The position numbers and the translations under genes were made by a program. The notes beneath the pieces are model-generated. The model made no database searches. It saw only the letters and a program-made list of their open reading frames with translations, and had not been told where the DNA came from. Of a stretch of 64,000 nucleotides of DNA, positions 32,144 to 56,672 are shown piece by piece. Position 1 is the first letter of the stretch. Each line of letters opens with the position of its first letter. Location: positions 558,001 through 622,000 of the forward strand of contig NZ_LT629781.1 in the NCBI RefSeq assembly GCF_900105685.1, given 5' to 3'. The DNA is from Verrucomicrobium sp. GAS474. Its GTDB lineage: Bacteria; Verrucomicrobiota; Verrucomicrobiia; Methylacidiphilales; GAS474.

Positions 32144-33307
32144 CTAACCCGCCGCCGAAACCGCGACGGGACTCGACACGGGGCTCTTCGCCTTGTGGAA
32201 CCGGATCTCGTAGAGGGAATAGGAATAGGCGGCAATCGTGAAGACGACCGCGATGTCGACGGCGAGGAAGAGGAGGCCGAACAGCGCGTAGCCCGGCGTC
32301 CCCAGCGGCACCAGCCGGTGGAGCGCGCCGAGGATCAGGACGCCGAGGGGAAGATGGTAGACGTAGACCCCGTAGGAGATTTTCCCGCCGTATTGGAGCA
32401 TCCGCCAATCGGTGAAGCGGGTCCACGGAGCCCCGCCCATCGTCTGCGCCAGGGCGCACGCCCCGAGCGCCGCGAGGAGGGAGTAGCCCCAGAGGAATTC
32501 CCCGTGCCGCCCCATGTGGACCGGATAGCCGAGGCCCGAGGCCTTCAGCAGCGCGCCGACGTGCAGCGGCCCCGCCGAGTCGCGCCAATTCAACGCGATC
32601 ACGAGGAGGCCGCCCAAGGCCGCGAGAATGCCGAGGGCGAGGAAGACGGCGCGGCGCTGGAAGAAGTGCAGCACCTTGGGCCAGGTCAGCAGCGATCCCA
32701 TCGCGAAGGCGTCGAGGTAATTCACCGGCTGGTGGTAGAGCCAGAGCGTGACGAACGCCATGTCCCGCCCCTGCCGGGCGAAGAGGAACGCCGCCCCGAT
32801 CCGGAAGAGCGGGACGAGGAGGAGGAGCAATCCCCCGATCCAGGGGAACGCCTCCTCGGGCAGCCACCAGACCAGCGCCGTCCAGGCGATGTAGATCTGC
32901 CATTCGACGGCGAGGCTCCACAGATGGCCGAACCACATCGATCCGCTCTCGAGGCCGATGTGCCAGAAATTCGAGGTGAAGCTCAACAGGTAGGGCCACT
33001 GGGCGCGGAACTCCGGCGGACGGCGGAAGAGGAGCCAGCAGGCGGCGAAAATCGCGACCAGGAGGAAGTAGGGCGGGAAGAGCCGGAGGACGCGCCGCCC
33101 GAGGAACCCGCCGACGAAGGAGCCCATCGAGCGGTCGATCCCCTTCCGCTTCCGCTGCCGGAGGAGCGAGGTGATGAGGAAGCCGGAGAGGACGAAGAAG
33201 AGGAGGACGCCGATCCAGCCGCAGACGATCGTCTCGCCCCAATGTTGCCCCATCACGGCCAGGACGGCGATCGTCCGCCAGGAATCGAGCCGGGGTTGAT
33301 AGGTCAT
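32144..33307 (-). CDS. Membrane acyltransferase, family 3 (OafA/YrhL-like)
   Basis: 387 residues from ATG 33307. It opens with the family motif YQPRLDSWRTIAVLAVMGQH, where an arginine and histidine of the active site lie, and has about ten membrane segments. The signature W-S-L-A-V-E-W-Q-I-Y appears as HLWSLAVEWQIYIAWTA. Such enzymes O-acetylate or acylate surface polysaccharides or lipids. The gene opposes smc across a 290-bp AT-richer region. A second relative lies at 52384, inside the fibre island. Confidence 0.88.
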   Translation of the reverse strand: MTYQPRLDSWRTIAVLAVMGQHWGETIVCGWIGVLLFFVLSGFLITSLLRQRKRKGIDRSMGSFVGGFLGRRVLRLFPPYFLLVAIFAACWLLFRRPPEFRAQWPYLLSFTSNFWHIGLESGSMWFGHLWSLAVEWQIYIAWTALVWWLPEEAFPWIGGLLLLLVPLFRIGAAFLFARQGRDMAFVTLWLYHQPVNYLDAFAMGSLLTWPKVLHFFQRRAVFLALGILAALGGLLVIALNWRDSAGPLHVGALLKASGLGYPVHMGRHGEFLWGYSLLAALGACALAQTMGGAPWTRFTDWRMLQYGGKISYGVYVYHLPLGVLILGALHRLVPLGTPGYALFGLLFLAVDIAVVFTIAAYSYSLYEIRFHKAKSPVSSPVAVSAAG

Positions 33308-33599
33308 GAAGGACGGGCGGCGAGGGCCTCTCGCCAAAAACCGGGGTCACCATAGAAATGAGCGCAGGCGGTGTCAATCCGCCGCCCCGACCCCGAACTG
33401 TACATCCCCCCGTACATTTCCCCTTCACGAAAGAATCTCCCTCCGTACCAGTACAATACCCATAAAATTAACATGAAAGAACTAATCCGTACGACAAACA
33501 AATTACACCATGCATAGGGCTTTTTCTCTCTTATGCCCCTACTAATAGCGTATTTTGCCTTGAAGGGGTCGCCGGTACCTAGGTAGGTTCCCCCTCGTT
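33308..33599. promoter_or_regulatory. Divergent regulatory region upstream of smc
   Basis: 292 bp between divergent starts, AT-richer than the surroundings, with many GTAC tetramers (AACTGTACATC, CCGTACATTT, CCGTACCAGTAC, CCGTACGAC). These may form a binding-site cluster, but I cannot assign a regulator. The segment from about 33430 to 33560 probably holds both promoters. No RNA gene or small ORF with a ribosome-binding site is evident. Confidence 0.35.
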
Positions 33600-42596: not shown

Positions 42597-43388
42597 ATGA
42601 ATTCACATCAGCCCGTCTTCCCGGATTCAAAAATGGCTACCCACATGCCGTTTCTCGATGGCGAGACGCTTGTCTTTTGTCGCGCGGACAATTTCATCGA
42701 GAAAACATTCGGACAGGGAGCTTCCTTCCCGAAGGAAGCTGACCGGGTGCCGACAAATCGGAGCTTCCTCTACAGGCCCTGGAAATTGGCGTTCTGCGCG
42801 TGGAAAAACGGCCATGCCCGATCAATTCAGACCGGACTTCCCGTCGCCGCCATCGAATGCAGCCCGGCGATCTATCGGGAGAATGGGAAAATTTTCCTGT
42901 CGTTCATCAGCGGAACGCCGTCCGATGGCACGCTCCACTACCGGCTTTACACATCTTCAGGCCCGACCTTGGAGGAATTGGAGCCTGCCCGCCCTATTTC
43001 AAATCAAACAGCGCTCTACGGTTTTGTCAGTGCCGTGCATATTTGTCGCGGCAAGGGAAACGAACTGGAACTCCTCGAAAAGGAATCGGGGAAAATCTTG
43101 CGCGTGACGACCGATTTTCAAGGAATTTCCCGCGTTACCTTTCTCTCGGAGGAGCCGCAGAAGCTTCTTATCACAGGCGTGGACAAGGCGCGGAACTACC
43201 GGACCGCCCTGCATGATTTGACCACGCAGCAAACCTGGGATCTTTGTTCGGAAGGGAATCTATACAAATCGACCGTCCATGGGGAAACCGTGGTTTTTGC
43301 CCACAAACTCGCAGGCAAGGAAAACCGGGAACTGCGTCACGGTCAATACACCCTTTCCCCTTCCTCGCTTCAAATTACCCATCGCTAA
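42597..43388 (+). CDS. Hypothetical protein preceding RHS
   Basis: 263 residues, no signal or membrane segment. The sequence has several beta-rich repeats (ENGKIFLSFISGTPSDGTLHYRLYTSSG, LEKESGKILRVTTDFQGISRVTFL) suggestive of a small propeller or sandwich. It ends 2 bp before the RHS start, so the two are almost certainly co-translated, and it may be a chaperone, adaptor or cargo partner of the RHS protein. No family recognised. Confidence 0.6.
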   Translation: MNSHQPVFPDSKMATHMPFLDGETLVFCRADNFIEKTFGQGASFPKEADRVPTNRSFLYRPWKLAFCAWKNGHARSIQTGLPVAAIECSPAIYRENGKIFLSFISGTPSDGTLHYRLYTSSGPTLEELEPARPISNQTALYGFVSAVHICRGKGNELELLEKESGKILRVTTDFQGISRVTFLSEEPQKLLITGVDKARNYRTALHDLTTQQTWDLCSEGNLYKSTVHGETVVFAHKLAGKENRELRHGQYTLSPSSLQITHR

Positions 43389-43390
43389 TT

Positions 43391-46300
43391 ATGTCTGAAT
43401 ACAAGGTTTTGTCTCTGTTTTCCGTAAGTGACGAAGATCCCAACTGGGTCGATTTGGGGGGATTCTTTCAACAAACATACAAAGCTCCTGCTTCTTACAA
43501 AAACATCAGTTGGAGGCTGATCAATACCAGCACGGGTGCCGTCGCCTGGTATGGCGACGTTACGGAGACTAACCATCTTGATCCCGGCACGGCACCCAGG
43601 AACTTCCGATACTACAATTATGGCCCCAATTGTTTCGACCCCATGGCGCTGGAGATCGAGTTCATTCCCGATCCGTGCCAGCCGTGCAAGTGTCCCTGCG
43701 ACGATCCCAGCGGCCAGAACTGCTGTCCCGCGAGCGATGCCACCTCGAACTCCGTCGAGCTCGCCACCGGCCGCTTCGTTTTCGAGCAGGAGCTGCTCTC
43801 GTTGAGCGGCGTCGGTTCGGGAAGCTGGAGCTTCGGTTTGAATTACAAATCGAACTACGCGATCGACAGCATCTTGGGAAAAAACTTCGCCTACCCCCAA
43901 TACCTGCACCTGGAACGACTCTCGACGGTCGAGGGCTTGACCAACATGCAGCTGGTCACCAACCAACTTACCCGGGCGATCTTCATCGATAACGGAGACG
44001 GAACCTATTCCTCCCCCGCCGGCAACAATACGGGCGGGGTCCTGACCTATGCGGATGAGGTATTCACACTGACGGCGTCGGACGGGTCAGTCACGAAATT
44101 CATGGGATTGTATTATGGCACAGAAGGGTGTCCCTTCAGCATGGTCGATCGATACGGCAACAGCCAAACTCTTTCGTGGAGCTTCTTTTATGATTTGAGC
44201 GGGCACTATGTCCCGCAACTCCTCAGCGTCACCGACGCTTACGAGAGGGTCATCACCTACACCTACCACGATAGCGGAACACCAGGGGCGGGGCGTCTCA
44301 AGCAGATCACCGATTTCCTCGGTCGCCAACTCGACTTCCAGTACGATTCGGGCTCCCGCCTCGTGGCCGTCGTCACTCCCTCGATCCTGAAGGCGGCACC
44401 CGGCAATACCTTTCCCGGTGGCACCGCCTATGTCTTCCAGTACGACTCAGGCAACGCCGATCCGGAACGTCGGGACGATCTGATCCGGATTTGGTATCCG
44501 AACCAGACTCAGCCTTACCTCGACGTCGAGACACGCACCGTCAATGTCCAAGCGGTCTATCAAAATGCCACGCCACGCTACCAGGTTACCTACGGCCAGG
44601 ATCCCACCAACGTCGATACCTACGGCAAGGTTCTCACCGAGACCGTCGGCGATCCGCAGAACGGAGTCGGAGGGACGGCGCTTTTCAATTACACCACCAC
44701 CGATCTTCCCTCGAATCTGATCGATCCCTCGGCGCCGATCACCAGCCGTACCACCCACACCGATCGTAACGGCAATCTCACGATCTACGATTTCAACGCC
44801 TATTGGACGACCTCTCGCCTCGAGGTGCAGACCAATCGCGGCAAGAACAGCCTCGAAATCACGCCCCCCACCCTGCCGCCCAACGCCTCCCCCTACGTCA
44901 CCTGGACGAAGTTCACAGCCCAGAACCAGCCTTCACTCATCGTCTACCCCGAAGGGAACAGCGTCGCCTACACTTATGAAACAGGGGTCATCCCCGGCTT
45001 CTCCTCCCCTTACGTCGCGCGGCGCGGCCTCCTGCTGAGCGAGACCCGCCTCCCCGGCAATACCCTCGGCATCCCCCACCGCTCCGGCAGCAACGGCCAG
45101 ACGGAACTCACCAAGCGCTACTTCTACGATCCCCTCTTCAACCAGCTCTGCGCAACCATCGAGGAGCGGGGCAATCCCATCGACGGGAGCAGCACCTACT
45201 TCACCCCGCAGAACGGCGGCACCACGCCGACCAATAGCGACCGCAGCCGCTACGCCACGATCCAGACCTTCGACTACCAGAAGAACCAGCTCGCCACCGT
45301 CACCGGCAATGCCGGCCTCCAGGCCCTCCTCGGCCTCGACGCCACGCAGATCGCCGCCCTCATCACCTACGTCGATACCCAGATGAAAGCCACCGACGGT
45401 ACCGGAGGCCTGCCCGGCGGCTTCCCCCTGAACCTCGGCGACATCAACGGCGACGGCACCGGCGACGGCGCCTCCAGCGGCCTCCCCGCCGCCCCCCTCC
45501 TCGGCAACGTCCTCCGCACCGTCCATCCCCCTGTCCTCCTCGTCGGCGGCACCACCCAGAACCGGGTCGAGCTCTTCACCGTCAACCTCCGCGGCCAGAC
45601 CACCACCGCCACCGATCCCGAGGGGAACCTCACCGTCACCGTCCGCTATCCCGAGAACGATCCCGACGGCGACGGCCTCAACATCGCCCCCGGCCTCACC
45701 ACCCGGCAGTACGGCCTCGTCCGCGAAGTCCACGTCGACGCCGACCCCGACCAGGTCATGAGCCTCCTCGGCGCCTCCGCCGACCTCGTCGCCTTCACCT
45801 CCGGCCTCATCCCCCGGACGAACACCCCCGGCATTTATCAGGACCTCATCACCCGCTACGAGGGAAGCAGCGGCTGCGCCACCTGCGCCTACGACGCCAT
45901 GGGCAACGCCCTCAACGAGACCGACCCCCGCGGCTTCACCACCGTCTACGACCGGAACGAACTCGGCGCCATCTACCGCACCACCAGCCCGGAGCCCTAC
46001 GCCTTCCGCGTCGAGACCTACTACGACGCGAACCGCAACGTCATCCGCGTCGACACCGAGGACCGCCAGCCCCTCTACGACTCCATCGACCCCACCTCCT
46101 CCGGCTACGGCCACTTCAGCCCCACCGGCAGCGGCGCCACCGCCCACGTCCCCATGACCTCCGGCCCCGGCGGCGCCCTCCGCCCCGGCTGGTTCAGCAA
46201 CCTCATGGCCTACGACCTCCTCGACAACAAGATCGAGGAAGACATCGACGCCACCGGCTCCACCCCCGCCAGCCTCCTCACGAGATACGCCTACGACGCC

Positions 46301-49300
46301 AACCAGAACCTCGTCCAAATCACCAAGCCCGCAGGCAACACCGTCGAGTACGATTACGACGAGCGGAACCTCCGCATCGCCGAGCGCGTCGGCTACGATC
46401 CCGCCGATCCGGCGACGCATCCCGGGGCCGTCACCGTCAATTCCTACGACGGCAACGGAAACCTCGTCAACGTCATCGCCCCCGTCAACCGGGGCGGCAC
46501 CGGCACCGCCCTCACGGCCTATATCATGAACGCCTTCGGCAGCGGCTCCCAGCTCGTCGCCACCGGCGATTGGACCGTCCAGAACACCTACGACGGCTTC
46601 GACCGCCTCGTGAAAACCACCGACGCCGTCGGCGGCCTCACCAACAACACCTACGACCCCGCCGCCAACCTCGTCGCCCAGCAGAAACAAGGAACCATCG
46701 GCGGAGCCACGCCCACCGACCGCACCGGCACCGGCAACACCCCCCTCTCCAACACCGTCCTCCGCTACGACGAGGCCTCCCGCACCTACGAGCGGCAGCA
46801 GGATGTTTTCCTCGCCACCGGCGCCACTCTCGGCTCCGGCCGCGATGTCGCTCAGGCAGGCGGCGGCCTCGCCGCCAACTCCACCGCGAACAACCACACC
46901 GGCAGTGCCACCCTCACCAGCGGAGGAAGCAGCTACGTCCTCACCCGCACCGTCTACGACGCCACCGGCCGAGCCGCTGCCACGTTGACCGACAACACCG
47001 CCCAGACCAGCTACGCCTACGACGGAGCCAACCGCCGCCTCCTCTCCACCGATCCCCTCGGCAACCAAACCGCCATCCAGTACGATGGCAACGGCAACCC
47101 CGTCCGCTCCACCTCCGTAGAGGTCTGCACCATCACATTGCCGACAGTCCCGAACGAAACCTTCACCACCTTCACCTGGTACGATTCCCTGAACCGCCCC
47201 GTCGTCCAGGGCGGCCAGGGGGCCGATGGCCAGCTCACCGCCAACCTCGGCCTCTGCTGCCCCTGGCAGGGCCTCCCCAGCACCCTCTTCAGCCTTTCAG
47301 GCTACGACAGCCGGGGCAACCTCGTCTCCGCCGTCGATCCGAAGCAGAACGTCGTCCTCTCCGAATACGACGGCGCCTCCCGCCTCGTCGAGACCCTCCA
47401 GCAACTGCGCCAGGCCGGGCAGGGAAGCAATCCCCCCGAGGCCAACCAGAGCTTCCTCCCCGCCGGGGGCGGCAACATCCGCACCGGCTACGTCTACGAC
47501 GCCAACAGCCGCCTCGCCGAGCTCCTCGACGACCGCGACGCCGCCACCGTCTACCGCTACGACCTCCTCGACCGCCAGGTCACCAAGACCCTCGCCGACG
47601 GCTCCCTCTCGACCAACGCCTACAACCTCGCGGGGGATTTGACCGGCTACACCGACGAGAACGGGAGCGCCTTCGCCTTCACCGTCGATGCCTTGGGCCG
47701 CCGCACCGCCGTCGCCATCACCCTCGCCACCGGCGTCCTCGGCACCACCGCCCAGACCTTCCAATACGACGGCCTGGGCCGGAACACCCAGGCCATCGAC
47801 ACCGTCGTAAGCACCAGCGCCGAAGTCGACTTCATCTACGACTCCCTCGGCCACGTCCTTGAGGAAAAGCAGGCCTACGGAGGCCAGACCCGCTACACCA
47901 CCCATAACAGCTGGTTCTCCCTCGTCCCCGCCGTTGTTGTCTACCCTTCCGGGACCAACAGCTTCGGCAACGGCTACGACCTCCTCTACCGGCGCAACGC
48001 CCTCGTCACCACCGGGGCCTCCGGCACCCTCGACACCGTGAGCTGGGAATTCTTCGGCCCCAGCCGCATCGCCGAGACCCGCTGGGGCGGCACCAGCCTC
48101 ATCGCCACCCAGCTGAACAACGACCGCACCCGCTCCGCCATCCAGACCGGATGGCCCACCCCCGCTTGGGGCGATCAATCGAGCGACCGCCTCGGCTACG
48201 ACGGCGCGGGCCGGATGATCACCAAACGCTACCTGACCGGGGGATTGGACGGCTCCGGTGCCTACGCCGACACCACCGCCCTCGTCGGCTTCACCGCCAG
48301 CCACGACCGCGCCGGGAACAAGATGTACGAGCGCGCTTTGCACGCCGAGAGCCGGAGCAGCCTCTACCAGCCCGTCGCCGATAACGGGACCTGGCAGACC
48401 GGGTACGACTCCGCCAACCGCCTCCGGCAATACCAGCGCGGCGTGCTGTCGTCGGCCATCTTCCCCTACCGCGCCGGACCCGGGGCCAGCATCGCCACCC
48501 CCCTCCTCCTCCCCGGCAGCGAGCGGAACCGGACCTACGACCTCGACGGCCTCGGCAATTGGAAGAAAACCGACTGGACCCTCGACGGCTACGCCGCCAC
48601 CACCACCCTCACCAAAGAAGTCCGCCAGCACAACTACGTCAACGAAATCACCCAGGTCCGGGCCACCACCGGGGCCACCGTCACGAACACCCCCTTCACC
48701 TACGACCACGGGAACAACACCGACGGCATCCAGGGGAACGGCAACACCGCCAACGACGGCGTCCGCACCTACCAGTGGGATGCGTTCAACCGGTTGATCA
48801 TCGTCGGTAAAGCCTCCGGCGGGGCCACTCTGGCAACGTACGTCTACGACGCCCTGGGGCGGCGCATCCAGAAAGCCATCGCCGACCTCGGCGCCGGCCT
48901 GGGTGGATTGACCGGGGACATCCCGGCGGAAACGACCACCTATCTCTACGACGGGCAGCAGATCATCGAGGACCGGAATGCCGCCGCGCCGGGCGATTGG
49001 ACGAAGATCTACTTCTGGGGGCAATACGTCGATGAACTCATGGTCATGGCCACCCCGACCAACGTCTATCGCCTCCTCTCCGACCTCCTTTACCGAAGCA
49101 CGGCCCTCGTCAAAACCGACGACAACTCCATCGCCGAGGTCTACGACACCGATGCCTACGGCATCACCCTATGCTACTGGAGATCGAGCTTCGACGGGCA
49201 GTGGTTCACCGATGACGACGAGCCCACGAACAATCCGATCAATACGACGATCTTTACGGGGAGGCAGTTTGATCCGGAGAGTCAGATTTACTATTATCGG

Positions 49301-49753
49301 GCGCGATATTACTCTCCGATGGCGGGGAGGTTCTTAACCCCCGACCCGCTGGGTGTCGTAGGCGGAATCAATTTGTATGAGTATGTGGGGGGAAATCCAG
49401 TTACTCGGGTGGATTTTGACGGTGAGTATGCGACGGCACCTTCGCTTATTATACCCAAACCGTATATTTTGCCTCCACCGATCCCTGTCTTCCCTCTGCC
49501 ACCCGACTACCCAAATGTTCCTCCATCACCCGATACGGATCCAAATTACCAAAAGCGAAAGGATTGCCAAAATACGGCTCAACAAGTGAGAGATGCTTGC
49601 GACAAAAGTTGTGAGCCTATCTGCGATAAAAAAGCAAAGGCACGATGCTATGCGGGGTGCAAGAATAGGTACGATACGGATCTGCGAGACTGCAACGCGA
49701 GATACCCTTCCAATCCAACCTATCCCCCCACACGCGATCCTAGAGTGGCTTAA
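43391..49753 (+). CDS. RHS-repeat protein (polymorphic toxin-type)
   Basis: 2120 residues from ATG 43391. The N-terminus (1-110) has no signal peptide and ends with a Cys cluster (PDPCQPCKCPCDDP, GQNCC). YD/RHS repeats (YDxxGN, YDGxGR, YDALGRRIQKA) run through most of the protein, forming the cocoon-like beta-shell. The conserved core ends at FTGRQFDPESQIYYYRARYYSP, GRFLTPDPLG and INLYEYVGGNPVTRVDFDG. After it a Pro-rich linker and Cys-rich tip of about 95 residues follow (KDCQNTAQQVRDACDKSC); DNA there is markedly AT-richer, as for exchangeable RHS tips. Secretion route is unclear: no VgrG/PAAR or Sec signal is seen. Confidence 0.9.
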   Translation: MSEYKVLSLFSVSDEDPNWVDLGGFFQQTYKAPASYKNISWRLINTSTGAVAWYGDVTETNHLDPGTAPRNFRYYNYGPNCFDPMALEIEFIPDPCQPCKCPCDDPSGQNCCPASDATSNSVELATGRFVFEQELLSLSGVGSGSWSFGLNYKSNYAIDSILGKNFAYPQYLHLERLSTVEGLTNMQLVTNQLTRAIFIDNGDGTYSSPAGNNTGGVLTYADEVFTLTASDGSVTKFMGLYYGTEGCPFSMVDRYGNSQTLSWSFFYDLSGHYVPQLLSVTDAYERVITYTYHDSGTPGAGRLKQITDFLGRQLDFQYDSGSRLVAVVTPSILKAAPGNTFPGGTAYVFQYDSGNADPERRDDLIRIWYPNQTQPYLDVETRTVNVQAVYQNATPRYQVTYGQDPTNVDTYGKVLTETVGDPQNGVGGTALFNYTTTDLPSNLIDPSAPITSRTTHTDRNGNLTIYDFNAYWTTSRLEVQTNRGKNSLEITPPTLPPNASPYVTWTKFTAQNQPSLIVYPEGNSVAYTYETGVIPGFSSPYVARRGLLLSETRLPGNTLGIPHRSGSNGQTELTKRYFYDPLFNQLCATIEERGNPIDGSSTYFTPQNGGTTPTNSDRSRYATIQTFDYQKNQLATVTGNAGLQALLGLDATQIAALITYVDTQMKATDGTGGLPGGFPLNLGDINGDGTGDGASSGLPAAPLLGNVLRTVHPPVLLVGGTTQNRVELFTVNLRGQTTTATDPEGNLTVTVRYPENDPDGDGLNIAPGLTTRQYGLVREVHVDADPDQVMSLLGASADLVAFTSGLIPRTNTPGIYQDLITRYEGSSGCATCAYDAMGNALNETDPRGFTTVYDRNELGAIYRTTSPEPYAFRVETYYDANRNVIRVDTEDRQPLYDSIDPTSSGYGHFSPTGSGATAHVPMTSGPGGALRPGWFSNLMAYDLLDNKIEEDIDATGSTPASLLTRYAYDANQNLVQITKPAGNTVEYDYDERNLRIAERVGYDPADPATHPGAVTVNSYDGNGNLVNVIAPVNRGGTGTALTAYIMNAFGSGSQLVATGDWTVQNTYDGFDRLVKTTDAVGGLTNNTYDPAANLVAQQKQGTIGGATPTDRTGTGNTPLSNTVLRYDEASRTYERQQDVFLATGATLGSGRDVAQAGGGLAANSTANNHTGSATLTSGGSSYVLTRTVYDATGRAAATLTDNTAQTSYAYDGANRRLLSTDPLGNQTAIQYDGNGNPVRSTSVEVCTITLPTVPNETFTTFTWYDSLNRPVVQGGQGADGQLTANLGLCCPWQGLPSTLFSLSGYDSRGNLVSAVDPKQNVVLSEYDGASRLVETLQQLRQAGQGSNPPEANQSFLPAGGGNIRTGYVYDANSRLAELLDDRDAATVYRYDLLDRQVTKTLADGSLSTNAYNLAGDLTGYTDENGSAFAFTVDALGRRTAVAITLATGVLGTTAQTFQYDGLGRNTQAIDTVVSTSAEVDFIYDSLGHVLEEKQAYGGQTRYTTHNSWFSLVPAVVVYPSGTNSFGNGYDLLYRRNALVTTGASGTLDTVSWEFFGPSRIAETRWGGTSLIATQLNNDRTRSAIQTGWPTPAWGDQSSDRLGYDGAGRMITKRYLTGGLDGSGAYADTTALVGFTASHDRAGNKMYERALHAESRSSLYQPVADNGTWQTGYDSANRLRQYQRGVLSSAIFPYRAGPGASIATPLLLPGSERNRTYDLDGLGNWKKTDWTLDGYAATTTLTKEVRQHNYVNEITQVRATTGATVTNTPFTYDHGNNTDGIQGNGNTANDGVRTYQWDAFNRLIIVGKASGGATLATYVYDALGRRIQKAIADLGAGLGGLTGDIPAETTTYLYDGQQIIEDRNAAAPGDWTKIYFWGQYVDELMVMATPTNVYRLLSDLLYRSTALVKTDDNSIAEVYDTDAYGITLCYWRSSFDGQWFTDDDEPTNNPINTTIFTGRQFDPESQIYYYRARYYSPMAGRFLTPDPLGVVGGINLYEYVGGNPVTRVDFDGEYATAPSLIIPKPYILPPPIPVFPLPPDYPNVPPSPDTDPNYQKRKDCQNTAQQVRDACDKSCEPICDKKAKARCYAGCKNRYDTDLRDCNARYPSNPTYPPTRDPRVA

Positions 49754-49765
49754 TAACGGAGTATT

Positions 49766-50068
49766 ATGTACAGAGAAGTTACTTATGATTGGGGTGATCG
49801 AAAAGATGCTGAGATCATCAAAATCGTTTCGATAGAAAAAATAAATGACGAGCGCTGGGAATGTCGCTGGTGTCTTCCTCACATATGCCCAGAGGGATCG
49901 TCCACCGGAATCGATCCCTTTCAGGCGCTTCTATCGGCTTTGAGTTCTATGAGAAATCTCATCGCAGATTCAGGTTTCCCCAATTTGACTGTCTATCAAT
50001 TTGAACCGGGAGATAATGCAAATATCACGCTTGAATACGGAAGCGACGGCGTAGGCCCCGCGCAATAA
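49766..50068 (+). CDS. Candidate immunity protein for the RHS tip
   Basis: 100 residues, ATG 49766, 12 bp after the RHS stop. It is acidic and cytoplasmic (DWGDRKDAEIIKIVSIEKIND, ECRWCLPHICPEG). Size, charge and position directly behind an RHS C-terminal tip match the cognate immunity genes of RHS/CDI systems. No immunity family is recognised, so the role rests on context. Its stop codon abuts the displaced RHS tip. Confidence 0.55.
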   Translation: MYREVTYDWGDRKDAEIIKIVSIEKINDERWECRWCLPHICPEGSSTGIDPFQALLSALSSMRNLIADSGFPNLTVYQFEPGDNANITLEYGSDGVGPAQ

Positions 50069-50484
50069 GGTTCTTATCGAGAGACCCGATTGGGACAGCA
50101 GGCAGGATCAACCTTTACGAGTACTGTGGAGACAACCCTCTCGTATTGGTCGATCCTATGGGGCTCAGAGGCTCTACTCCCGGTAATGGTTCGGAATGTT
50201 GCTTGGAACACAAACCGCAATGGGAACTCGATGGAGACGGAAGCGCAAACGCATGTATGGATGCTTATGTGGCTCCATACTTGCCACCTGGTTGGGGGCA
50301 AGCCGCCGCTGGCCTTGGATTTACCCTGTTAAGCCTTGCTAAGGGGATTGCGGGCACCGCCGGCCAGGGCGGAGGCGCTTTATCGGCTGGATATATTGCA
50401 GGTCTTTATTTGCAGGCCGCGATTTATTGCACCAATCAAATCTGCTCCAAAAAAGGAAAAATCAAATGTGGAGATTGTCAGTGA
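50068..50484 (+). pseudogene. Displaced (orphan) RHS C-terminal cassette
   Basis: Reading from the immunity-gene stop, the plus strand encodes RFLSRDPIGTAGRINLYEYC, then GDNPLVLVDPMGLRG, a second copy of the RHS core end, fused to a different tip of about 100 residues. That tip contains CCLEHKPQWELDGDG, AYVAPYLPPGWGQAAAGLGF and a hydrophobic stretch before IYCTNQIC. No start codon or ribosome-binding site precedes it, so it cannot be expressed alone. It is the classic silent RHS tip, usable only after recombination with the full gene. The similarity begins at the shared DNA AGGTTCTTA. Confidence 0.75.
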
Positions 50485-51008: not shown

Positions 51009-51124
51009 ATGAACATCGACCTCAACGGCAACACGCTGATCCAAGGCTATTTCTCCGGCATCGGAGAGGAATTGACCGCCCTCAACGCCTCGAACCTGAC
51101 GACCGGCACCGTCCCCGATGCGCG
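51009..51124 (+). repeat. Direct repeat, head of fibre gene 1
   Basis: 116 bp identical to 53532-53647 except at one position (51074, G versus A). The next 26-bp identical block begins at GTGACGCTGCAGGGG. Beyond that the two genes diverge. Confidence 0.95.
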
Positions 51125-52379
51125 TCTCGGCGCCGATGTGACGCTGCAGGGGAATACGTTCAACGAGGCGTCGAAATTGGTCCAATTCGGGCCTGATGCG
51201 ATGATTCCTTTCCCTGACGCGGGAGGAGGGGTGCCTCTATTGGATTTTGTGAAGCTCTCGGCCAATATGGATGATCCCTATTGGGGAGGGTTCAATATTG
51301 CGATTTCTCCCGATTACGATCATCCGGCGGAAACGGCGCTTTTCTCCTTTTATGCCAATGGAGCGATGCAGTTCCCCAAGAATGGAAATCCCGATGGCGT
51401 CTATGGTTTGATTGTCGGATTCGGCCATCCGACTTCGGGAAGGCATGCGGGAAATATCGATTTCTCCGGCAACGATTTCCCTAACGCAGCAGGAGGAAGC
51501 ATCGGCCTAAAAGGTGGAAATGCCGCCGGAGCGTGGGCAGGAAATATCAACGGAACGGGAGGATCGGGAGTCAACGCTCACGGGGGAATTATTAATTTTT
51601 ACGGAGGATCGGCTGCCGGGACCAATGGAGGAACGATTGATATTTCCGGCGGAACGACCTATCCCGGCGGCAGTATCAATCTCAAGGATGGCGCGGGAAC
51701 TATCCAGCTAGGCACCGGAGCCACGCTAACCCTGCCGAATACGACGGGGACGGTGGCGCTGACCTCGGATGCCTTCCCTCACGACATGATCCGGCTTTCC
51801 GGGTCGGGGACGTGGACGATTCCCTCCGGAGTGACCTCCTTTAAGGTGACGTGTATCGGCGGGGGAGGAAGCGGTTCAGCCCAATATTTTTACGGGGGCG
51901 GAGGCGGGGGGGGCGGGGGCGCTGTCATCGCCCTCTTCAAGAGCCTCGCGCCCGGGACATCCTTCACTTATGCGGTGGGAACGGGCGGAGCCGGGGTGAC
52001 CTGTTCTTCGACGGTGACGACTATCGATGGAAATAATGGGGGCGATACGACCTTCGGGGGCCTGATCGCCGGGGGCGGAGGCGCGGGCAATTTCGTGGGC
52101 GATGCGGGTTCGGGCGGCGGGACTTACGTGGGATCGATGACGAGCGCATTGGGGCTCAATGGACAAACGGGAGGCTATGCGATTTTTGGAGCAACGTACT
52201 TTTCCACGGGCGGCGGCAATCCCGGCGCGGGATTTGGTAATGGAGCTTCGTACACGAACTGCGGGAGAGGAAACGGAGCCCCTTCGGGATATGGCGGAGG
52301 AAGCGCCGGGTTTTCCGGCAATACCTCAGCCGGTTCCTCGGTCGCAGGAGGGGACGGCCTGATCCTCATTGAATATTGA
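51009..52379 (+). CDS. Tail-fibre-like protein with glycine-rich domain
   Basis: 456 residues. The N-terminal 50 residues (LNGNTLIQGYFSGIGEELTA, NASNLTTGTVPDARLG) match the repeated trimer-forming units of phage tail fibres and related surface proteins. A beta-helical middle with repeated GG-x-I/N motifs follows. The C-terminal domain opens with GTWTIPSGVTSFKVTCIGGGG and is glycine-rich, like the tips of many phage fibres that bind host receptors. There is no signal peptide. The start region is nearly identical in DNA to that of the gene at 53532. The gene ends 4 bp before the acyltransferase start. Confidence 0.75.
   Translation: MNIDLNGNTLIQGYFSGIGEELTALNASNLTTGTVPDARLGADVTLQGNTFNEASKLVQFGPDAMIPFPDAGGGVPLLDFVKLSANMDDPYWGGFNIAISPDYDHPAETALFSFYANGAMQFPKNGNPDGVYGLIVGFGHPTSGRHAGNIDFSGNDFPNAAGGSIGLKGGNAAGAWAGNINGTGGSGVNAHGGIINFYGGSAAGTNGGTIDISGGTTYPGGSINLKDGAGTIQLGTGATLTLPNTTGTVALTSDAFPHDMIRLSGSGTWTIPSGVTSFKVTCIGGGGSGSAQYFYGGGGGGGGGAVIALFKSLAPGTSFTYAVGTGGAGVTCSSTVTTIDGNNGGDTTFGGLIAGGGGAGNFVGDAGSGGGTYVGSMTSALGLNGQTGGYAIFGATYFSTGGGNPGAGFGNGASYTNCGRGNGAPSGYGGGSAGFSGNTSAGSSVAGGDGLILIEY
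51906..51913 (+). repeat. G8 homopolymer in fibre gene 1
   Basis: Eight consecutive G followed by C and five more G, within the glycine-rich domain. Slippage here would shift the frame and remove the receptor-binding tip. Confidence 0.6.
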
Positions 52380-52383
52380 GCAA

Positions 52384-53535
52384 ATGGAACACAACCCGCG
52401 CCTCGATTCTCTGCGAGGCATCGCAGCGTTGGCAATCGTCAGCTACCATTGGAAGCGGGCTATTCCTTTCGGCTGGATCGGGGTCAGCTTCTTTTTTGTT
52501 CTTTCCAGCTACCTCGTCACCTCTCTTTTGATCGAGGCGAAGGATAGGCATCCCTCCTTTATCTCCTACTATAGCTCGTTCCTGAAGCGGAGGAGCTTGA
52601 GGCTGCTTCCTCTTTATTTTCTGTTCTTCGCCCTCGTCGTGGGCGTTTCCCTGGCCTCTGGCGTGTTTTTCAAGGTCGCGAACGATCTGATCTATTTGGC
52701 CACGATGACCTTCAATTATCGTGCGATTTTCGGAGTGGCAGGCGATTACGGGCACTTCTGGAGTTTGAGCGTGGAATGGCAGTTCTATATTCTATGGGGC
52801 CTCTGCGCCTGGTTTTTATCGAGGAAAAATCTGTTGAAAATGGCAATCATCCTGATCCCGCTGGGAATGGTCGCGCGGATCGGAACGTGGGCAGTGTTGA
52901 CCTCGTGGGGCTGGTCCGAGGGCCGCATTGCAGGAGCTGTTATGTTTAGCTCCTTCACTTATATCGAGGCTTTTTCTTACGGAGTGCTGCTCACCGATCC
53001 CGGGATCAGAAAAGGATTCGGCTCGAGGAAGGTGCTGGCCCTTTGCGCGGCGCTGACGGGACTGGGAGGGATATTTGTCACGCTGGAAGCATGGCGGCAC
53101 GGGTTGCTGGGGGTGGAGATCGGAGTGAAGAATCTGGGATATCCCGATGGGATGGTTTTGTCTCACGAATATTTGTGGGGCTATTCGATCCTCGCTCTCT
53201 TCCTGGCTTCTTTCATGGCCTTCGTGATCGAAGCGAAGCCGTGGGATCGCTGGCTCCTTTCGCCCGGGCTTCGTTATGTGGGAGTGATTTCCTACGGGAT
53301 TTATATCTACCACTTTCCCATCGTTCATTTCTTTTTGAAGTGGTCCCCCTCCCGCCCGGATGTGAAAGGGATCGATGTTTTATTGGATCCGCTCAATGCG
53401 GTTTTATTTGCGGCTGCCGTGGCGCTCACCCTGATCGCCGCTCACTTCTCTTATTTCTTCTTTGAAAAACGATTTTTGACCTCATCAACCGCGCGACCCT
53501 TCCCCATCCCTCAACCCAGAAACGACCCGACATGA
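52384..53535 (+). CDS. Membrane acyltransferase, family 3, within the fibre operon
   Basis: 383 residues from ATG 52384, 4 bp after the first fibre gene. Family motifs: EHNPRLDSLRGIAALAIVSYHW at the N-terminus and GHFWSLSVEWQFYILWGL; about ten membrane segments. Distantly related to the enzyme at 32144. Its stop overlaps the start of the second fibre gene (ATGA), so all three are translationally linked. Acyltransferases beside phage fibres often O-acetylate host glycans and thereby change receptors; that function here is an inference. Codon use is less GC-biased than in the 32-kb homologue. Confidence 0.85.
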   Translation: MEHNPRLDSLRGIAALAIVSYHWKRAIPFGWIGVSFFFVLSSYLVTSLLIEAKDRHPSFISYYSSFLKRRSLRLLPLYFLFFALVVGVSLASGVFFKVANDLIYLATMTFNYRAIFGVAGDYGHFWSLSVEWQFYILWGLCAWFLSRKNLLKMAIILIPLGMVARIGTWAVLTSWGWSEGRIAGAVMFSSFTYIEAFSYGVLLTDPGIRKGFGSRKVLALCAALTGLGGIFVTLEAWRHGLLGVEIGVKNLGYPDGMVLSHEYLWGYSILALFLASFMAFVIEAKPWDRWLLSPGLRYVGVISYGIYIYHFPIVHFFLKWSPSRPDVKGIDVLLDPLNAVLFAAAVALTLIAAHFSYFFFEKRFLTSSTARPFPIPQPRNDPT

Positions 53536-53647
53536 ACATCGACCTCAACGGCAACACGCTGATCCAAGGCTATTTCTCCGGCATCGGAGAGGAATTAACC
53601 GCCCTCAACGCCTCGAACCTGACGACCGGCACCGTCCCCGATGCGCG
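53532..53647 (+). repeat. Direct repeat, head of fibre gene 2
   Basis: Second copy of the 116-bp head repeat; see 51009-51124. The two are 2523 bp apart in direct orientation, so recombination between them would delete one tip plus the acyltransferase gene. Confidence 0.95.
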
Positions 53648-56507
53648 CCTGAGCACCGACGTGACGCTGCAGGGGAATACGTTCAATGCGGCGAATCAAC
53701 TGGTGCAGCTCGATTCGGTCGGTGCCGTGGCCATTGCAGGGTATACAGGCACGCCGTCGGTTTCGCCCACTGGCTGCCCAAAGATCACCGTGAACCCCGG
53801 AGGCGGAGTGGGGACGAGATCGGCGCAGAATTTCATGATTTGGATGACCGACTATGCCACGGGTAATCCCGGCGCGTGGAATTTCGACAACGAACCGATC
53901 CTCCGCTTCCCCAACAATAATCAAGGCGAGGACGCCGGATATCTCGTCTTTTACAACAAAGGCCCCGGCTATAGTCGGGCCGGGCGGATCGACCTGCGAG
54001 GCGGAACCTATCATGGAACCAGCGCCTATTCCGGGGACATCTCCATGGGTGGAGGCAGTGCGGCGGATACGCATGGCGGCGCGGTCGTAACGGACGGCGG
54101 CTCCGTGGCCGGGGCTCATGGTGGAGAGCTTAACCTGCGAGGAGGATCCTCCTACCCCGGCGGATCGATTAACCTGAGCAACGGTGGAGGAACGATCGCA
54201 CTGGGTACAGGGAATACGCTGACGCTGCCGAATGCGACGGGAACGGTGGCGCTTCAATCCGATATTACGGGTTATCTTCCTCTTTCCGGGGGAACGCTGA
54301 GTGGATCGCTCAACATTACTCCTGCGACCGGAGAGGCGAGTTTGAAAATTATTAGTGGGGATACCGATTCGTATCTCCAACTCGGGACTGCCGGAACCAG
54401 TTACTGGACCTTCTTTTCCGGGGCGGACACCGATTTTCAACTTGCAGGCCCGACGGGCAGTAACCTACGAATCAGCAGAACGACTGGATTCATGTCCTTT
54501 TATAAGGACGCCGCCTTTTCCGGCGCTCTCTCGGCCGGCACCTTCTCTGGCTCCGGCTCCGGTCTGACAGGGATCCCTCTTTCCGGCTTGGCGTCGAGTG
54601 GCGCATCAAGCGGGGAGGTACCGGTCTGGAACGGAACGGCTTGGGTGCCGGGGACGACTGCGGGCTCAGGCACGGTGACGAGTGTCGGTCTTTCGATCCC
54701 CTCGGTCCTCGGTACGGTTTCAGGCTCTCCAGTGACGGGAAGCGGGACGCTGGCGATCACCGCCCCGACCATGGCGACGGGGGCCTTCATCGCCTCCCCG
54801 GCAGGAACGAGCGGCACGGCAGTGGCCCGGACGATTGTGGCTTCGGATATCTTCAGCATTCTTTCGGCGGCGATGGACACAGCCTTCGGGTCAGCGCAGG
54901 GGAATGTCCTGCAGCGGACGGCGTCGGGATGGAGTGTGCTGGCCCCCGGGACGGCGGGCCAGGTGTTGACGACGAACGGCGCGGGAGCCAACGCGGTCTG
55001 GGCGGCCTCGGGCGGGGGAACCTCCGTCCAGGTGCCGGTGCGGCAGACGGCCCTTTCCGGTGCGGTGAATGCGACGGGGCAGGGGAACTGCCTCACGACG
55101 GGCTCCGGATTCCAGCCGGGGGTGACGACGAATGCGGGAAGCGATCCTCTGACGCTCGCCTTCGCGTCGGGATTCGGCAGCTCGGGCAATGTCGATTACG
55201 TGGAGCAGATCACAGCGGATCAGGCGACTTACTGGTCTGCCTTGCCTGCGAATAATCTCTCCTTCCTCGCCATCACCCGGACGGGTGTCGGGAGCCTCTC
55301 GCCCTACGCGACCTTGGCCCCGCCCCAATACGGCTACGCCTACAATCCGACGGCGCAGACGGCGCTCTCCCTCAACAACAAGAGCACGGATGATTTCGGG
55401 AATGCCTGGACGAATGCCTCGGTGACATTCACCGGCGCGTCCCCGCAGATCGCGGGAACGCAGGTCGGCGTGTTCAACGGCAGTTCCTCTCGCATGTCCT
55501 CCACCAGCTTCACCACCTTGGGGGTGGGAGGGTGGGCGCTGCGGGGATGGTTTAAAATGGGTTCGTTGGCATCGCCACAAGGACTCTTCCAATTCTGCAA
55601 TTCGGCAAACAATTTAGGGGCAGCCGTTCTTGTTTCTTCCTCGGGCAAGACTCAGCTCAATCTTTCCAGCAACAACTCCTCATGGGATATCGCCAACTCC
55701 ACTGCGGGATCGATCACGATGACCACGGGGACATGGTATTTTGTGGAACTGACCTTCGATTCGGTGGCGGGGAAATACGTTCTCTACATTAACGGCGTGG
55801 CGGATCAGACGATTACCTCGACCTCCCGGATTTGCAGGATCAACACGGGATACGTCGGATTCAACAACCCGACGGGGACGAATACGTGGCTTACGGGCAA
55901 TGCGCAAGGATTCGAGTTCCTCCCCTACTGCCAGCATCCCAACGGAACGACCTACTCGGTCCCGACCGCGCTCGCCGACGTCACAGCGGCGGGGTACGCC
56001 TCCGATTGGTTCGATATCTCGTTTTATACGTTGAAACGGATCGCCGCAGCGTCGGCTTCGTCGGGGGTCAATCCCACGTTTGCCGCGGTGAACCGCGTCT
56101 ACGTCGGTGAGGCGACCACAGGGGCCTCGACCGTGTCGTCGATTGTGACCTATGCTTATCAGGGGAAGTACAGCACGGGTTTCATCCCCACCCTGCCGGG
56201 GTTGTCGGCGGCGGTTTCCTACAACCACAACATTGGCACCAACCTGTTAAGCAATCCGCTCCTTTCCTTGAAATGCCTGACGGCGGACCAGAGCTATGTG
56301 GCCGGAGACATCGTCACGGGATGGGGAGGATACAATCCCTCGCCCGATTACGTTCCCGTCCCTTTGACGTGGACCAGCAAGACCATCGGGTTCTCCACGA
56401 TGGCCAATCAGGCATGGAAGACGGTCTACAAGACCGGCGGCAGCATCGTGGTCATCACGAACTATAGCTATTGGGCCTACCAGATCACGGTCCAGAGAGG
56501 GTTTTGA
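53532..56507 (+). CDS. Large tail-fibre-like protein with LamG/ConA-like domain
   Basis: 991 residues. The head is the same as in the protein at 51009. Then come GG-rich beta-helix repeats, a fibre repeat (YLPLSGGTLSGSLNI), a Gly/Ser/Thr-rich shaft (GSGTVTSVGLSIPSVLGTVS), and a concanavalin/LamG-type lectin domain around residues 640-800 (VGVFNGSSSRMSSTSFTTLG, TGTWYFVELTFDSVAGKYVL). No signal peptide. Plausibly a second fibre with a carbohydrate-binding tip. Its start overlaps the acyltransferase stop by 4 bp. Confidence 0.75.
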   Translation: MNIDLNGNTLIQGYFSGIGEELTALNASNLTTGTVPDARLSTDVTLQGNTFNAANQLVQLDSVGAVAIAGYTGTPSVSPTGCPKITVNPGGGVGTRSAQNFMIWMTDYATGNPGAWNFDNEPILRFPNNNQGEDAGYLVFYNKGPGYSRAGRIDLRGGTYHGTSAYSGDISMGGGSAADTHGGAVVTDGGSVAGAHGGELNLRGGSSYPGGSINLSNGGGTIALGTGNTLTLPNATGTVALQSDITGYLPLSGGTLSGSLNITPATGEASLKIISGDTDSYLQLGTAGTSYWTFFSGADTDFQLAGPTGSNLRISRTTGFMSFYKDAAFSGALSAGTFSGSGSGLTGIPLSGLASSGASSGEVPVWNGTAWVPGTTAGSGTVTSVGLSIPSVLGTVSGSPVTGSGTLAITAPTMATGAFIASPAGTSGTAVARTIVASDIFSILSAAMDTAFGSAQGNVLQRTASGWSVLAPGTAGQVLTTNGAGANAVWAASGGGTSVQVPVRQTALSGAVNATGQGNCLTTGSGFQPGVTTNAGSDPLTLAFASGFGSSGNVDYVEQITADQATYWSALPANNLSFLAITRTGVGSLSPYATLAPPQYGYAYNPTAQTALSLNNKSTDDFGNAWTNASVTFTGASPQIAGTQVGVFNGSSSRMSSTSFTTLGVGGWALRGWFKMGSLASPQGLFQFCNSANNLGAAVLVSSSGKTQLNLSSNNSSWDIANSTAGSITMTTGTWYFVELTFDSVAGKYVLYINGVADQTITSTSRICRINTGYVGFNNPTGTNTWLTGNAQGFEFLPYCQHPNGTTYSVPTALADVTAAGYASDWFDISFYTLKRIAAASASSGVNPTFAAVNRVYVGEATTGASTVSSIVTYAYQGKYSTGFIPTLPGLSAAVSYNHNIGTNLLSNPLLSLKCLTADQSYVAGDIVTGWGGYNPSPDYVPVPLTWTSKTIGFSTMANQAWKTVYKTGGSIVVITNYSYWAYQITVQRGF

Positions 56508-56598: not shown

Positions 56599-56672
56599 TG
56601 GAGCGGGTGAAGGGAATCGAACCCTCGTCTCAGCCTTGGGAAGGCCATATTCTACCATTGAACCACACCCGC
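56599..56672 (-). tRNA. tRNA-Gly (anticodon CCC)
   Basis: 74 nt with encoded CCA. The acceptor stem GCGGGTG pairs with CACCCGC, the D-loop is GGTTCAATGGTAGAA-like, the anticodon loop is TTCCCAA (anticodon CCC) on a stem with two G-T wobbles, and the T-arm is GAGGGTTCGATTCCC. It lies 92 bp beyond the second fibre gene and may mark the edge of the accessory island. No duplicated tRNA end is visible within the window. Confidence 0.95.

Follow-up and report, generated by a model that had tools for sequence, protein, structure and literature searches.

The O-acetyltransferase Oac of Shigella phage Sf6 is encoded by the very phage whose receptor it changes. This O-acetylation blocks superinfection, hindering the endorhamnosidase of the phage itself, and the title of a reference cited in the same source (reference 50) places oac beside the integrase gene (PMC9558356). 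Acyltransferase genes of the AT3 type are also known at tail fiber loci, as in WC36-2 (OL791266), a phage of a Lentisphaerae strain, in which the AT3 gene adjoins fiber, fiber-assembly and baseplate genes (PMC11361711). The motifs R-X10-H and RXXR are essential in the AT3 enzyme OafB (PMC9833829). In tail fibers with exchangeable tips, modules are swapped between fibers.

Here we analyzed a stretch of 64,000 nucleotides of Verrucomicrobium sp. GAS474 (contig NZ_LT629781.1, positions 558,001 to 622,000), hereafter the window, in which two fiber genes, A and B, enclose an AT3 gene on the same strand (Table 1). We propose that these genes are probably a low-GC3 cassette for receptor binding and lysogenic conversion from a tailed phage, which became stranded in the chromosome by an Rhs locus and a tRNA-Gly. 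The likeliest state of this cassette is that of a stranded remnant, which may possibly have kept functions.

Table 1. Features of the fiber-acyltransferase cassette and its neighbors, in window positions.
Feature	Position	Strand	Details
Rhs/YD-repeat gene, left neighbor in the same low-GC stretch	43244..49753	+	PF05593, TIGR03696; only one found in the genome
Fiber A, 456 aa	51009..52379	+	near-identical head 1-40, GG(S/T)I-repeat shaft ~145-250, Gly_rich_2 tip 265-456
Head repeat copy 1	51009..51124	+	116 bp, differs from copy 2 at one position
AT3 membrane O-acyltransferase	52384..53535	+	383 aa (ATG start at 52384) or 388 aa (TTG start at 52369)
ATGA overlap, acyltransferase stop / fiber B start	53532..53535	+	read from sequence
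Fiber B, 991 aa	53532..56507	+	head as in A, related shaft, generic phage-fiber linker ~340-500, tip ~498-991
Head repeat copy 2	53532..53647	+	116 bp, one mismatch to copy 1
tRNA-Gly (CCC), 3' end facing the cassette	56599..56672	-	tRNA search

All three open reading frames are intact. The tip of fiber A matches Gly_rich_2 (PF21722, 7e-13), which bears out the glycine-rich tip assigned to it in an earlier, sequence-only reading of this DNA, and fiber A also matches the tail family phrog_863 (6e-17). Fiber B has no Pfam match, hence the label "LamG-like" that the same reading gave to its tip is a judgment by eye and found no backing; the structure model of this module of ~490 residues (pLDDT 32) was too poor to use. 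The three genes had also been read as translationally coupled. This holds for the acyltransferase and fiber B, whose stop and start share the ATGA, whereas the junction between fiber A and the acyltransferase is a 4-nt gap if translation starts at ATG 52384, the likely start judging from the sequence, or an overlap if it starts at TTG 52369. Scans for terminators and promoters gave results at chance level.

Searches with single proteins found no close relatives of fiber A or the acyltransferase in viral contigs, nor of fiber B in named genomes, and tblastn of the tips and the head against GenBank phages gave no match. A phmmer search against solved structures matched the linker of fiber B to adenovirus Fiber-1 (E 0.0006), a weak hit that we judged to be low-complexity. 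Local blastp matches of ~22-28% among glycine/serine-rich fiber proteins came from a run without low-complexity correction and were set aside as well.

Alignment of the two fiber genes confirmed that both start with a 116-bp direct repeat that has a single mismatch (G/A at 51074, synonymous) and extends, at weaker identity, to 182 bp at 91%. The identity begins at the fiber ATG, and the upstream flanks of the two copies are unrelated. The sequence-only reading had suggested looking for the head elsewhere; a DNA search across the genome (a single contig of 3,763,444 bases) found just the two copies in fibers A and B. Genome scans with the head and shaft gave matches that were weak and confined to a few genomes, and the structure model of the head (pLDDT 36) was too poor to use. 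Over head codons 1-40, 37 of 40 are identical and the three differences are silent, compared to identical codons for 12 of 29 identical residues in a conserved block near residue 220. Because silent positions are alike in the head, protein-level selection alone would not account for them, and the head is recently shared rather than merely conserved.

The similarity of the two proteins does not end with the head, but persists to ~residue 260 at 51% amino-acid identity, a region that includes the GG(S/T)I-repeat shaft. The tips, described earlier as completely different, are thus different only beyond this point. Fibers A and B are either a pair of older date, duplicated or related, in which the heads became alike afterwards, or the outcome of a recent head graft. 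Recombination at the head is therefore supported by the codon comparison as a past event and not as a running switch; of the "recombining" system previously suggested, the historical part stands, whereas the active part is not supported, a single arrangement being seen.

Domain and motifs identify the middle gene as an AT3 acyltransferase that is intact. It matches PF01757 (1e-22, 81 bits against a cut-off of 31) and the O-acetyltransferase family phrog_3333 (3e-33), has multiple hydrophobic segments, and carries the motifs R11-X10-H22 and R70-S-L-R73 (RXXR). The link to a glycan-modifying enzyme suggested in the sequence-only reading is supported. The nearest AT3 to this enzyme is encoded in the same window (32144-33337, 34-36% identity). 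An uncultured Opitutaceae gene, whose neighbors look like sugar-polymer genes, shares 36% identity over the N-terminal part, and the best phage AT3 found shares 33.5% over 157 residues. Being closer to the host AT3 and the Opitutaceae gene than to the phage AT3 found, the enzyme may have a bacterial source.

The neighborhood of AT3 and tail genes recurs in phages. AT3 genes adjoin fiber and baseplate genes in viral loci such as L172, L202 and L219. Of 79 viral loci, 25 have seed homologs of tail genes within 4 kb of the AT3 gene, compared with 1 of 77 genomic loci. These figures come from clipped loci and do not prove AT3-fiber enrichment, because any phage gene picked at random might be found about equally near to tail genes. 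Among those phage loci that were inspected, AT3 is convergent with the fiber, whereas in the cassette it is co-directional and sits between two fibers. Within limited searches, the same-strand order fiber-AT3-fiber was not found elsewhere.

Two scans of viral contigs identified tip B in ten viral loci, at 36-48% identity. The tip-B fiber comes after P2-type gpJ/gpI in L060, after the siphophage tip protein J in L054, L059 and L023/L061, and after a baseplate wedge and a structural protein in L021, which equals L057. Since it ends fibers behind different baseplate or tip genes, tip B is a mobile tail-fiber module across unlike phages. At these viral loci, no AT3 was detectable within 6 kb of tip B, and among 387 genomes of the phylum tip B occurs in this genome only. 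In one viral contig of 192 kb (L056, IMGVR_UViG_3300022872_000001), four tandem fiber genes carry tip B, with small repeated genes between them.

On the domain homology of both tips, fibers A and B qualify as phage tail fiber or receptor-binding proteins, and their phage origin is well supported by the sequence comparisons, in line with the identity and origin first suggested for them. The sequence-only reading named a lack of linkage to any export or tail system as grounds for its own refutation; such linkage is indeed missing at the cassette locus, yet in viral contigs tip B does show linkage with tail genes.

The cassette lies at the right end of low-GC patches covering ~42-56.6 kb of the window, which hold the Rhs gene, a displaced Rhs tip, small orphan genes and the cassette, and end at the tRNA-Gly; on both sides this stretch is flanked by ordinary host genes. 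The GC3 of the cassette is 0.63-0.73 versus 0.91-0.95 for neighboring host genes, and is similar to that of the resident prophage fiber (0.71) and the L021 fiber (0.69). Among the genes listed for the window, none for capsid, tail, terminase, portal or integrase was seen, its small ORFs had no PHROG matches, and no att-like repeat of the tRNA-Gly of at least 14 bp was found within the window. The locus thus holds no intact prophage that would carry the AT3 gene as a lysogenic-conversion gene, and no tail or baseplate genes adjoin those of the fibers. Together with the possibly bacterial source of the AT3 and the lack of AT3 at the viral tip-B loci, the missing phage genes and att repeat are the evidence against a phage cassette. 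In an empty-site comparison with two genomes of the same genus, the left flank of the cassette was absent and the right flank ended at a contig edge.

This setting also suggests that the three genes could be passengers of a variable chromosomal site, namely unrelated foreign genes gathered by the Rhs locus and tRNA-Gly in which fibers and enzyme have no joint function. The extent of the low-GC patches, the displaced Rhs tip and small orphan genes directly upstream of the cassette, and the lack of linkage between AT3 and tip B elsewhere are all consistent with such a site. However, the ATGA overlap, the tight packing of the three genes on one strand and the shared head flanking the enzyme on both sides speak against it, and we regard mere passengers as unlikely.

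The displaced Rhs tip (50060-50484, RFLSRDPIGTAGRINLYEYCGDNPLVLVDPMGLRG...) is located 3' of the Rhs gene, which is intact; a small DUF6968-like ORF separates the two, and the tip resembles an orphan Rhs C-terminal cassette. In a genome of the same order (G010:C22; L045:14804-17278, L046), two large genes come after that for an exported GG(S/T)I-repeat protein, and the second of them encodes 1676 aa and is possibly Rhs-like by eye; the pairing of a fiber with an Rhs gene may recur.

A second stranded fiber in the same genome (2708582-2710678; L037:13583-15679) also ends in tip B, with 57% identity (match 2709203-2710663). It has a GC3 of 0.48 and no phage genes beside it, and adjoins genes for a TPS exoprotein and a ShlB-type transporter, which lie on the opposite strand. 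Compared to fiber B, its differences by codon position are 0.38/0.25/0.69, mostly at third positions, a bias that fits constraint on the protein.

The position of this second fiber beside two-partner secretion genes brings to mind domesticated surface adhesins, that is, fibers kept by the host as cell-surface binders, with the acyltransferase tuning its glycan coat. The lack of phage genes near the cassette and the intact ORFs are compatible with such a role, as is a related fiber-like protein at genome 2157 kb that has a signal peptide and a host-like GC3 of 0.94. Nevertheless, hydropathy analysis revealed no hydrophobic segment in fibers A and B, hence neither a signal peptide nor a membrane segment or anchor, so that an exported form of the adhesin suggested in the sequence-only reading is not supported. 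Moreover, the GC3 of the cassette is not host-like, and the second stranded fiber and the two-partner genes do not share a strand. Domestication as adhesins is therefore rather unlikely. The protein at 2157 kb (genome 2155461-2157725; L011:7462-9726) possesses in addition a GDSL domain and a K1-lyase_C end, has no apparent phage genes beside it, and is perhaps a settled, exported version.

The genome also contains a resident prophage of 34.86 kb (3722222-3757081; L009, L010, L019, L223-L225) with integrase, terminase, portal and major head protein genes. Its site is a tRNA-Arg(CCT), where the identical core measures 54 bp. Both the junction with the host and a stretch that continues around the phage circle, at the end of the contig, are present in the assembly, suggesting that the sample contained an excised or tandem form. 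The fiber-like protein of this prophage (L009:8377-10485, minus strand) begins with a Sec-type signal peptide (MKKLLLL...) and carries a GDSL lipase/acylhydrolase domain, and another fiber-like protein in a phage-like gene context (G002:C437; L048:3103-3966) has a Sec-type signal peptide as well (MKKLLLL...). Signal peptides of this type are unusual for virion fibers, and the two proteins may be surface proteins of lysogens.

Fibers A and B might serve as spare fibers that the resident 34.9-kb prophage uses in trans to alter its host range, given that its circle is present in the assembly and that its fiber has the motif QGNTFNAANQLV in common with the cassette fibers. But the heads resemble the prophage fiber only weakly (38% over 58 residues, E 0.0035), and the prophage fiber, unlike A and B, has a signal peptide at its start, making this use very improbable. 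Fibers of this kind also occur on contractile tail-like particles, and the cassette could in principle belong to a tailocin or an injection system. The genome has no match to the sheath (PF04984, Phage_sheath_1) or to baseplate J (PF04865), although both searches ring in controls, and the window has no visible tail, capsid or integrase genes. The tail-like particle raised in the sequence-only reading is thus not supported, and its contractile form is largely refuted and retains hardly any probability.

We return to the favored explanation, a stranded phage cassette, and propose how it would work. Through their shared head, the two fibers would attach at one and the same site of a virion's tail, from which each of the two tips would bind a different receptor at the surface. 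The AT3 enzyme would acylate a surface polysaccharide of the host, so that the receptor is changed after infection, leading to lysogenic conversion and superinfection exclusion. Such a scheme, like that of Oac in Sf6, looks like a modification of the common phage combination of a fiber that binds a receptor and an enzyme that alters it. A recent duplication or gene conversion made the heads near-identical, and recombination between them could join head A to tip B and eliminate the enzyme. The remainder of the phage would have been lost from the site, and any present-day expression of the three genes is hypothetical. A receptor cassette retained by the host, which would be co-expressed, supply fibers in trans to resident or incoming phages, alter the host receptor through its enzyme, and delete the enzyme and switch the tip by head recombination, is quite improbable in our view.

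Phages of this verrucomicrobial host are little known, and the cassette presents a receptor-binding tip that moved between very different phages, here on a local head and beside a surface-modifying enzyme. Should the three genes function jointly, one coupled unit would encode both attachment and the change of the receptor, and would be movable or deletable as a block. The near-identical heads predict a 2.5-kb deletion, by which the tip would be swapped and the enzyme removed at once.

Compared to known systems, the cassette recalls tail fibers with exchangeable tips in that tip B ends the fibers of several phage types, but differs in having heads alike, tips different and no tail genes left. 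Similar to OafB and OafA, its enzyme has the R-X10-H and RXXR motifs, yet is AT3-only, without their fused SGNH domain. In this respect it resembles Oac of Sf6, likewise AT3-only (PF01757); unlike oac, the AT3 gene of the cassette sits on the same strand between two fiber genes, overlapping one of them, and its substrate is putative. The gene neighborhood is reminiscent of that in phage WC36-2, whose enzyme, however, is a 685-aa protein of the O-antigen acetylase type encoded convergently with one fiber, whereas that of the cassette has 383 aa and is co-directional between two. An AT3 gene beside a fiber gene is thus already known in phages, and what sets the cassette apart, within the limited searches, is the same-strand order of fiber, AT3 and fiber.
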